This document shows positions 10,040-13,642 of a stretch of DNA of 42,991 bases, one piece after another (positions within the stretch are counted from its first letter, which is position 1; each line of letters begins with the position of its first letter). A program made the position numbers and the translations under genes. Under the pieces are notes generated by a model, which was not told the DNA's origin, searched no databases, and worked only from the letters and a program-made list of their open reading frames with translations. Where the stretch lies: assembly GCA_018653315.1 (NCBI GenBank), contig JABIAL010000034.1:1-42991 (forward strand), read 5' to 3'. Source of the stretch: a bacterium. Its GTDB lineage: Bacteria > Patescibacteriota > Patescibacteriia > UBA1558 > GWA2-36-10.

Positions 10040-11737
10040 ATGAATAAATCTTGGGCAGAACCACAAGTTATAGATAAGAAAATAATAGAACAATTTCCTG
10101 AGCTACCGCCAACAGTAGTGCAGTTGTTACATAATCGTAATTTAACTACTCAGGAAGAGATAGATGAATTTTTATCTCCTGATTATAGCAAGGATATTCA
10201 TGATCCTTTTTTATTTAATGACATGAAAAAGGCTTGTCAGCGTATCCAAAAAGCTATTGATAAGCAAGAAAAAATCATTATTTATGGTGATTATGATGCT
10301 GATGGCGTTAGTTCAGCAGTTATTTTAACTACAGTGCTTAATAAATTAGGAGCTAAGGTAGATGCTTATTTACCACATCGGGAAAAAGAAGGTTATGGTT
10401 TAAATGAAAATGCAGTTAAAGAATTAGCAAAAAGTGATGTTAAATTATTAATTACTTGTGACTGTGGTATTAGCAATAGAGATGAGGTTAAGATAGCAAA
10501 AGATAATAATCTTGATGTAATTGTCACGGATCACCATGCAATACCAGAAAAATTGCCAGATGCTGTGGCAATTATTCATCCTCAGATAAGTGGAGAAAAA
10601 TATCCTTTTAAATTTTTAGCTGGTGGTGGCGTGGCTTTTAAATTAGCTCAAGGTATATTAAGATCTTCTAAATTAAACGAAGAAGAGGAAGAGAAAACAG
10701 AAAAATGGTTATTAGATATAGTGGCCATTGCTACAGTAGCCGACATGGTGCCTTTGCTAGGAGAAAATAGGACTTTGGTGAAATATGGTTTGATGGTTTT
10801 GAGAAAAACACAAAGATTAGGTTTACAGAAGATGATAGATGTAGCTAGCATTGATCGTGAAAAAATAGATGCGGTGACTATTGGTTTTGCTTTAGCGCCA
10901 CGCATTAATGCTGCTGGAAGAATGGATCATGCGAATTTAGCTTATTATTTATTAACTGAGACTGAAGATGATAAGGCACTTGAATTAGCTAAAACTTTAA
11001 ATCAATCAAATTTAGATCGTCAACGAGTGACAGAAGCTACATTTAGAGAGGCTAAAAATCAAAAAGTGGATTTAACAGATAGATTATTAGTTTTTTATCA
11101 GCCGGATTGGCCAGCTGGTTTAACTGGTTTAGTAGCTTCAAAGTTATCACGTCAACATAATCGTCCTTGTTTAGTTTTGACTAAAGTTGAAGACAACATA
11201 GTTGGTTCAGCTCGGAGTATTAAGGCTTTTGATGTGACAGCTGCTTTGGTAAAAAATAGTGATCTTTTATTACGTTTTGGTGGACACCCTCAAGCAGCTG
11301 GTTTTTCTTTAATAGAAGATAATTTGGAAAAGTTTAAACTGGAGATGAAAAAATTAGCTAATGATACTTTGACAGATGATAATATGCAGGCGCCATTGGA
11401 TATTGAATTAGCTATTGATTGGTCAGAAATTAATTGGTCTTTGGTAGATATACTGAATAAATTCGAACCATATGGTCAAAGTAATCCCGAACCAAACTTT
11501 TTATCTCGTGGTATTTTAATTACTCAGGCTAAACGAGTCGGTAAAGATCTTAAGCATTGGAAATTAGAATTAGTAAAACAAGATAAAAAGTTTGGAGCAA
11601 TTGCTTTTGGTTTAGGGAAAATGGATTTAGCTATTGGACAGAGAATTGATTTGGTTTATAATTTAAATATTAATCAATGGAATGGTAGCCGATCCATTCA
11701 ATTAAAAATTAAAGATATACAACAATCCTTCGGCTAA
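10040..11737 (+). CDS. recJ: Single-stranded-DNA-specific exonuclease RecJ
   Basis: DHH motif 'IIYGDYDADGVSSAVIL', 'VIVTDHHAIP', 'RINAAGRMDHA', DHHA1 'GSARSIKAFDVTAAL...LLRFGGHPQAAGFSL'. Confidence 0.96.
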   Translation: MNKSWAEPQVIDKKIIEQFPELPPTVVQLLHNRNLTTQEEIDEFLSPDYSKDIHDPFLFNDMKKACQRIQKAIDKQEKIIIYGDYDADGVSSAVILTTVLNKLGAKVDAYLPHREKEGYGLNENAVKELAKSDVKLLITCDCGISNRDEVKIAKDNNLDVIVTDHHAIPEKLPDAVAIIHPQISGEKYPFKFLAGGGVAFKLAQGILRSSKLNEEEEEKTEKWLLDIVAIATVADMVPLLGENRTLVKYGLMVLRKTQRLGLQKMIDVASIDREKIDAVTIGFALAPRINAAGRMDHANLAYYLLTETEDDKALELAKTLNQSNLDRQRVTEATFREAKNQKVDLTDRLLVFYQPDWPAGLTGLVASKLSRQHNRPCLVLTKVEDNIVGSARSIKAFDVTAALVKNSDLLLRFGGHPQAAGFSLIEDNLEKFKLEMKKLANDTLTDDNMQAPLDIELAIDWSEINWSLVDILNKFEPYGQSNPEPNFLSRGILITQAKRVGKDLKHWKLELVKQDKKFGAIAFGLGKMDLAIGQRIDLVYNLNINQWNGSRSIQLKIKDIQQSFG

Positions 11738-11780
11738 CGCTCTCTTCGAGCCTGAGCCTCAGAGCCGAAGGCAGGATGAC
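11726..11780. repeat. Dispersed palindromic repeat of the 'tccttcgact..gctcaggatgac' type
   Basis: CCTTCGGCT (11727-11735)/AGCCGAAGG (11763-11771) inverted repeat, then caggatgac; related units at 15351-15376 and around 3129-3150. Confidence 0.7.
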
Positions 11781-11803: not shown

Positions 11804-12208
11804 ATGAAAGCTAAATTATTTACTGATGGTGGATCACGAGGTAATCCGGGCCCATCTGCTATTGGTGGTGTTTTATATGCCGATGATGATAAAATTATCG
11901 ATACTTTTTCTGAATACACAGGAGAGGGGACGAATAATCAAGCTGAATACAATGCTTTGTTAACTGGTTTAGAATTAGCTCAAGAGCATGAGATAGATGA
12001 GATTGATTGTTTTTTAGATAGTGAATTAGTGGTTAAACAATTAAATAAAGAATATAAAGTAAAAGATACAGAATTAGCTAAGATATTTGTTAAAATTTGG
12101 AATTTAAGTCAAACTTTTAAAAAAATTACTTATTCTCATGTTCGTCGAGAGTTTAATAAAGAAGCAGATGCGCAGGTTAACAAAGCTTTGGATAAAGAAT
12201 TAAGCTAG
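11804..12208 (+). CDS. Ribonuclease H family protein (RNase HI-like)
   Basis: 'LFTDGGSRGNPGPSAIGGVLY', 'NNQAEYNALLTGLELA', 'DSELVVKQLN', 'HVRREFNKEADAQVNKALD'. Confidence 0.93.
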   Translation: MKAKLFTDGGSRGNPGPSAIGGVLYADDDKIIDTFSEYTGEGTNNQAEYNALLTGLELAQEHEIDEIDCFLDSELVVKQLNKEYKVKDTELAKIFVKIWNLSQTFKKITYSHVRREFNKEADAQVNKALDKELS

Positions 12209-12228
12209 TATTAGCTATTTTGTAGATA

Positions 12229-12257
12229 TTGACAAATATTCAAATTAGTATTAAAGT
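12229..12257 (+). promoter_or_regulatory. Sigma70-type promoter of a candidate ncRNA
   Basis: TTGACA (12229-12234), 17-nt spacer, TAAAGT (12252-12257). Confidence 0.65.
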
Positions 12258-12263
12258 ATCTAG

Positions 12264-12550
12264 GTTATTTAGTACATTGGAATTAGAAATTGAGAGTAAA
12301 GGACTTCGAAGAGTCTTGGGGCACTGGCCGTGTGCGAGTGCTTGTCAGAAGAATGGCGCAAATATCATGTTGGTAATTAGGACGCAAAGGGGGCGAGTGT
12401 ATCGGCCCATTACACACTTTGGGTTTGAAAAAGGCTAACTATACCAGGCCTTGGAAGAAGACGCGTTATCAGGCATCTGACTAAACCCTGGTTTTGTACA
12501 CTTTTACTTTCATTATGCCTCGCTTGGATCATTACTGAGCGAGGTTTTTT
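12264..12550 (+). ncRNA. Candidate structured non-coding RNA; very weak SRP-RNA-like core
   Basis: Own promoter and terminator; elevated GC against the neighbouring genes; several possible helices; no convincing protein. Boundaries estimated from promoter and terminator. Confidence 0.6.
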
Positions 12551-12553
12551 ATT
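12518..12553 (+). terminator. Strong intrinsic terminator of the candidate ncRNA
   Basis: CCTCGCT (12518-12524)/AGCGAGG (12538-12544) followed by TTTTTTATTT. Confidence 0.85.
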
Positions 12554-12607
12554 TATAAAATACCCCCACTGTCCTGACGGTATTTTAAATAATTAGCATT
12601 GATTTTT

Positions 12608-13642
12608 ATGTCGAAAAATGTTATATTTTATTCGATGTCAGTCGATTTTTCTTGGCCAATTTATGGTCACCAACAACAGATAAACTTTTTGCAAGAAAGT
12701 ATCCGCCAAGATAAATTGGCTAATACTTATTTGTTTTATGGTCCACGTGGTTTAGGAAAAAAATTAGTAGCCTATAATTTTGCTAAGAGCTTATTTTGTC
12801 AGGCTGAAGATAACAAACCTTGTAAAAAATGCGATGCTTGTCGGCAAATAGATAAAGGTGTTTTTGCTGATTTGCATATTTTAGGTAAAACTCAAGATGA
12901 ATTATCTGCTGAAAGTGTTAAGGGATTTTTAGCTAGATTGTCTCTGACTACTTCTTATGGCGGACATAAATTAGCTATTATACAAAAAGTAGAAAGTATT
13001 AATTTATTTTCGGCTAATGCACTATTAAAAATATTAGAGGAACCACCAAAAAATACCACAATTATTCTAGTAGCTGATCAAATACATAGTTTACCAGCCA
13101 CTATCATCTCTCGTTGTCAGTTATTAAAATTTCGTTCTTTGGACAAAGAGTCTATTCAAGAGTGGTTAAAATCTTTTGATTTAACAGAGATAGAAAAAGC
13201 TACTATTTCCAATTTATCTTTTGGTAAACCAGGATTAGCTTTAGAATATATGGAAGATAAATTAGATAATTTCAAAGAAAAGTGTGAATTTTTATTAAAA
13301 TTATTAGATAACGATACCTTGAGCGCTCTACAAAGCTTGGATCATTGGTTTACAGCTTTAAAAAAAGAATACCCAAGCTATAAAATTTATGAATTAGGTG
13401 AGCAGACCAAGCAATATTTACATTTGTTGGAGTTAATTTTAAGGGATATTTTATGGCTAAAATTAGGGCGTCAGCCGATTAATACTATTTTTGAAGAACA
13501 ATTAACGTTGTTAGCCAAACAGTATCAACCAGGAATATTGTTAAAGAATTTATTAAATATAAATAAAATAAAAAAACAACTAAAACAAAATGTTTCCCCA
13601 CTAACTTTGTGGGAAAATCTAGTTTTAGATTTTAAATCGTAA
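12608..13642 (+). CDS. holB: DNA polymerase III delta'-like AAA+ clamp-loader subunit
   Basis: 'HQQQINFLQESIRQDKLANTYLFYGPRGLGKKLVAYNFAKSLFC', Cys4-type 'CKKCDACRQI', 'ANALLKILEEPPKNTTIILVADQ', 'SRCQLLKF'. ATG at 12608 or the later ATG of 'MSVDFSWPI' is more likely than the TTG at 12599. Confidence 0.9.
   Translation: MSKNVIFYSMSVDFSWPIYGHQQQINFLQESIRQDKLANTYLFYGPRGLGKKLVAYNFAKSLFCQAEDNKPCKKCDACRQIDKGVFADLHILGKTQDELSAESVKGFLARLSLTTSYGGHKLAIIQKVESINLFSANALLKILEEPPKNTTIILVADQIHSLPATIISRCQLLKFRSLDKESIQEWLKSFDLTEIEKATISNLSFGKPGLALEYMEDKLDNFKEKCEFLLKLLDNDTLSALQSLDHWFTALKKEYPSYKIYELGEQTKQYLHLLELILRDILWLKLGRQPINTIFEEQLTLLAKQYQPGILLKNLLNINKIKKQLKQNVSPLTLWENLVLDFKS

Follow-up and report, generated by a model that had tools for sequence, protein, structure and literature searches.

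Long GC-rich gaps between the genes of AT-rich genomes are an accepted signature of structured non-coding RNA genes, and small and structured RNA genes have been found by searching such gaps (PMC8632094). The island described here, located between rnhA and holB in a bacterium of the Patescibacteriota, is likewise a long intergenic gap, GC-rich against an AT-rich genome and without a credible ORF, and it also has its own promoter and intrinsic terminator. It differs from the genes found by that approach in that it is present in one genome only, without a consensus structure or covariation. Two well-known RNAs, 6S RNA (RF00013) and tmRNA (RF00023), are broadly similar to the island in size. A closing helix is common to 6S RNA and the island, but 6S RNA is an extended rod opened by a central bubble, whereas two branched junctions are predicted for the island, which is not matched by the RF00013 model. 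The island shares with tmRNA a closing helix near the ends and a possible pseudoknot loop; in contrast to tmRNA, it lacks a tRNA-like domain and CCA and ends in a terminator. The bacterial SRP RNA (RF00169) has a few apex letters in common with the island (ACCAGG..GGAAG..AGGCA), but its model gives no match and its partner, Ffh, is missing from the genome. SRP subunits have been reported as absent in many CPR bacteria (PMC8080830).

Genomic Context and Composition

The window analyzed here is the whole of contig JABIAL010000034.1 (42,991 nt) and belongs to a genome of 881 kb in 39 contigs, which is 96.6% complete (G000). The rnhA gene stops at position 12,208, and the promoter of holB is located at 12599-12627. 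The 390-nt gap between them constitutes the island (12209-12598, forward strand). When calculated over 100 nt at a time, the GC content rises from 0.23 to 0.53 and then falls to 0.27, which confirms the observation of the preliminary description that a GC-rich island lies between the two genes. The 240-nt stretch starting at 12270 has a GC content of 0.45, the highest of the segments sampled in the window (mean of the 240-nt segments, 0.32). This value is comparable to that of the segments with RNase P (0.44) and tRNA (0.43), and the island as a whole resembles the gaps that hold these RNAs in being long and GC-rich within an AT-rich genome.

With a probability of about 60%, we consider the island to be a separate gene, specific to this lineage, that encodes a structured non-coding RNA of ~285 nt. 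The proposal made earlier, of an unannotated structured RNA miscalled as an ORF, is supported by the promoter and terminator pair, the GC content, the absence of a coding signal, and a well-defined predicted fold.

Other features of the window were also noted. A tandem array with a period of 99 nt occupies positions 12-774, near the contig end, and its copies are 68-79% identical to the reference copy. A palindrome, CCTTCGGCT...AGCCGAAGG, overlaps the recJ stop codon (11728-11775) and appears REP-like by eye.

Transcription Signals

The island carries a sigma-70-type promoter, TTGACA-N17-TAAAGT, at 12229-12257 on the forward strand. It was found exactly as described before and agrees with the consensus at 10 of 12 positions. 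The promoter alone proves nothing, because 10 sites of equal quality are present on the forward strand of the window and about 11 in shuffled sequences. An intrinsic terminator was also found on the same strand (12517-12552). It had been reported as a 7-bp stem at 12518-12553, but its stem actually comprises 11 pairs, six of them G-C (12517-12545), and is followed by a T-rich tail. Strong terminators are rare, with 0.1 expected per 43 kb and several observed in the window. The island contains the only promoter in the 43-kb window that is followed by a terminator at a distance of 200-400 nt, while 0.05 such pairs are expected from shuffles. The combination of promoter and terminator was not reproduced in any of 1000 shuffles of the island gap.

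From these signals, we infer that RNA polymerase starts near 12264 at the sigma-70-type promoter and stops near 12550 at the intrinsic terminator. The predicted transcript would be ~285-290 nt long (12264-12552, forward strand), with both ends deduced from the positions of the promoter and the terminator. Judged by its sequence, the island has the arrangement that defines a small RNA gene, i.e., a putative promoter and an intrinsic terminator of its own flanking an apparently non-coding body.

Secondary Structure Prediction

The minimum free energy (MFE) calculated for positions 12285-12515 was -73 kcal/mol, compared with -60.0 ± 4.2 kcal/mol in dinucleotide shuffles (z = -3.1). For the whole predicted body of the RNA (12264-12516), the z-score was -2.2, and for a fixed 240-nt frame starting at 12270 only -1.5. 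The fold-energy evidence is considered moderate, since the score depends on the frame chosen; some other stretches of the window, located outside known RNAs, have a lower z-score than this 240-nt frame. The mean positional entropy of the body (12264-12516) was 0.47 compared with 1.07 in shuffles, 1.7% of which were equally low, and the low energy and low entropy were reached jointly in 0.67% of shuffles. Subjected to the same test, the RNase P RNA encoded in this window showed a z-score of -2.85 and an entropy of 0.74. Compared with this known RNA, the island is somewhat less exceptional in energy and somewhat sharper in its predicted fold.

The body of the RNA would form a compact domain, in which a 9-bp closing helix leads to a first junction with hairpins, and an 8-bp inner helix leads to a second, three-armed junction. 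The closing helix P1 pairs 12291-12299 with 12504-12512 (pair probability 0.80-1.0), and its 3' strand ends four bases 5' of the terminator stem. A helix of this length spanning at least 200 nt was found in 3.3% of shuffles. It is followed by hairpin A (AGGACTT-CGAA-GAGTCTT, 12300-12317; 0.42-0.92), helix P2 of 8 bp (12330-12337 with 12494-12501; 0.71-0.85), and hairpin C (12338-12359; 0.72-0.78). An arm composed of P3 (12369-12374/12434-12439), P4 (12380-12389/12417-12426), and P5 (12390-12396/12402-12408) is predicted with probabilities of 0.86-1.0. The arm P6 (12443-12492; 0.79-0.96) includes the segment previously likened to the SRP RNA apex, for which there was no SRP match. All these elements are on the forward strand, and most of the inner pairs have a probability above 0.75.

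The helices suggested earlier from the sequence fared differently. The pairing of 12314-12327 with 12444-12458 is missing from the MFE fold. The segments GTGTA and TACAC (12397-12401/12411-12415), as well as GGGTTT and AAACCC (12421-12426/12483-12488), are indeed complementary, but the fold favors other pairings, which exclude these and have probabilities above 0.85. The GTGTA sequence would form the apical loop of the arm, with TACAC as its alternative partner. A pseudoknot between them coexisting with the full P5 hairpin was rejected by reasoning, as its connecting loops, at 0 and 2 nt, would be too short.

Homologue Searches and Origin of the Island

A BLASTN search of 54 genomes revealed no homologue of the island in the family, among the matches listed. 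In a local control, BLASTN recovered tmRNA across genera of this family, the best E-values ranging from 1e-17 to 1e-28. Recurrent short matches at query positions 205-233, together with several others, resembled shared motifs. Eleven of the short matches were fetched, and Rfam identified nothing in any of them. Inspection of the sequence of six of them gave no sign of an RNA homologue; in the three of these six whose ORFs were listed, the matches fell within or next to coding frames. We attribute the short matches to chance, although for L070-L074, five of the eleven, Rfam was the only check. Among 384 genomes of the phylum, BLASTN found no homologue and a few matches of 20-31 nt. The search against phages yielded none, and the search against plasmids yielded one 32-nt match, located in a formyltransferase gene. 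No similar island was present at 25 rnhA loci from GTDB; the most similar named rnhA genes came from Falkowbacteria, Uhrbacteria, Magasanikbacteria, and others. A one-sequence covariance model (R1) recovered only the island itself from 36-37 genomes of the order, and its unfiltered use on 17 rnhA-holB loci gave noise only. The conservation of the island in the rnhA-holB gap of relatives, which the preliminary description proposed to examine, was therefore not observed by BLASTN or R1 in 35 relatives.

The host genome groups with the sister genomes G001, G008, and G017 (support of 100/100 for the four). The rnhA-holB gap is ~390 nt in the host and approximately 3, 3, and 59 nt, respectively, in these closest relatives compared, where the insert is absent and the holB promoter appears soon after rnhA. 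The host lineage probably acquired the island after diverging from the sister genera.

The same gap was inspected in other genomes. In both G010 and G011 it contains an ORF on the opposite strand, a small one in the latter, and in G019 a promoter-like sequence with a small ORF. These loci (L038, L041, and L044) carry different small cassettes with short ORFs and palindromic repeats. A sub-threshold Rfam match to whalefall-1 RNA (30.6 bits; gathering threshold 37) was found in the G011 gap (L041, 1041-1101, minus strand), where it overlaps a palindromic repeat. The rnhA-holB gap thus looks like an insertion-tolerant site that takes other small cassettes. The gap of G009 (L049, 1333-1497) contains a perfect TTGACA-N16-TATAAT promoter and three hairpins, with a T run after the last one (z = -5.8). 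The last hairpin is absent from the results of the terminator scan, as its loop is longer than the scan permits, and its designation as a terminator is our own reading. We regard this unit as another candidate for an RNA gene in the rnhA-holB gap. It resembles the island in having a promoter, hairpins, and a T run at the same site, but it is ~130 nt long and unlike the island both in sequence and by the R1 model. An independent origin is likely.

The main rival to the RNA gene is a neutral or decaying insertion, e.g., what is left of a small cassette or mobile element, with a promoter and a terminator present by chance and a fold that serves no purpose. It holds this position because the island has one member only and no homologue for covariation. 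The occurrence of the island in G000 alone, among the genomes searched, fits such an insertion, as an element of a single genome can be recent neutral DNA; unrelated cassettes in the gap of G010, G011, and G019 and the moderate fold statistics are in line with it as well. On the other hand, the promoter, the closing helix, and the terminator are intact and ordered, the fold entropy is low, and the GC content is raised, although neutral DNA in this genome would be expected to drift to AT. We find a neutral insertion unlikely, yet it is the alternative to be taken most seriously.

An RNA gene could also be given a bolder interpretation, in which the island RNA would be the founding example of a previously unknown class of large structured RNAs, acting as an RNP scaffold or a ribozyme and restricted to one genus of Patescibacteria. 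A single member is too few to show any family, and we consider this proposal speculative and distinctly improbable.

Relation of the Island to holB

The called start of holB, TTG at 12599, belongs to the -35 box of the gene's own promoter (TTGATT-N17-TATATT, 12599-12627, forward strand), and ATG at 12635 is the likely start. Since holB has its own promoter, it would not need the transcript of the island. This bears on the reading of the island as a leader or attenuator, in which a structured RNA and a terminator would set the read-through into holB in a riboswitch-like manner. The terminator does lie just 5' of holB. However, the holB promoter is located downstream of it, and a similar sequence is present in relatives without the island. 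Moreover, a strong antiterminator was not seen (at most GCGAG/CTCGC of 5 bp, by eye), and the island matches no Rfam riboswitch family. Attenuation of holB is very unlikely, and the island RNA would probably not regulate this gene. Because the island has its own promoter and terminator, and holB its own promoter, the RNA most likely acts in trans, as a folded molecule that would bind a protein or another RNA.

Coding Potential

The 69-aa ORF called at 12229-12438 (forward strand) has the TTG of the -35 hexamer as its start, ahead of any transcription start site. Its codon score (z = 0.77) is low compared with 2.8-7.2 for slices of the same length from real genes of the window; the codon model was trained on these same genes, which somewhat favors them as controls. 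The score did not exceed 1.5 in any of the six frames of the island. A Pfam search of the ORF gave no family, the best E-value being 0.29, which fails the cut-off. The earlier description of an ORF that starts on the -35 TTG and lacks protein character was borne out. Conserved, synonymous-biased coding of 12229-12438 was named there as evidence against an RNA gene; the random codon score gave no coding signal. A small-protein gene, whether of 69 aa with its start at TTG 12229 or of 53 aa starting at TTG 12277, would be compatible with the open frame and with small ORFs in or at the equivalent place in the relatives G010, G011, G019, and G020. Besides the codon score and the lack of a Pfam family, the overlap of the start with the -35 box and the absence of a visible Shine-Dalgarno sequence speak against it. 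We regard such a gene as highly improbable and the ORF as spurious.

Comparison with Housekeeping RNAs

A strongly diverged or partial housekeeping RNA other than that of SRP was considered, since, of the 36 group genomes, 30 have a tmRNA (RF00023) above the Rfam cut-off but G000 has none. ARAGORN detected no tmRNA in the window, Rfam gave no tmRNA match in the island, and the island has a terminator at its end but no tRNA-like 3' end or CCA. Neither the tmRNAs of three relatives nor the window's RNase P RNA resembled the island more than shuffles did. The lack of tmRNA in G000 may result from an assembly gap, given the 39 contigs and 96.6% completeness. The suggestion of a 6S-like RNA did not gain support either. 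The RF00013 model found nothing in the island or in any of the 36 group genomes (0/36), and both the MFE and the centroid folds are predicted to be branched, unlike the extended rod and central open bubble of 6S RNA. The chance that the island represents 6S RNA or tmRNA is very small.

The Rfam scan for SRP, 6S, and tmRNA families, proposed in the preliminary description, gave no match in the island; at the gathering threshold and at E ≤ 10, the only hit was a chance match to PK-SPCSV, with no SRP family. The RF00169 model had no match in any of the 36 group genomes or in 290 genomes of the phylum, the latter searched with stricter filters that lose weak matches. The M domain is the part of Ffh that holds the SRP RNA. 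This domain (PF02978) was detected in none of 34 genomes (G000 and 33 relatives) and in all 14 control genomes. The SRP GTPase domain of Ffh and FtsY (PF00448) was not found in G000, and in relatives it gave weak partial matches only, one of them just above the cut-off. A divergent SRP RNA, suggested by the short letter likeness of 12442-12481 to the apex of 4.5S RNA, can be practically dismissed in view of these results and of the lack of a match to this segment in relatives of the family, among the matches listed.

Conclusions

The tempting reading of the island as a missing SRP RNA is removed, as neither SRP RNA nor the Ffh M domain was detected in the order. If the island is indeed an independent gene for a structured RNA, it would mean that these reduced genomes still gain RNA genes, here in the form of a compact, self-contained gene acquired in one lineage. 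The island would then offer an initial entry point to the lineage-specific regulatory RNAs of Patescibacteria.
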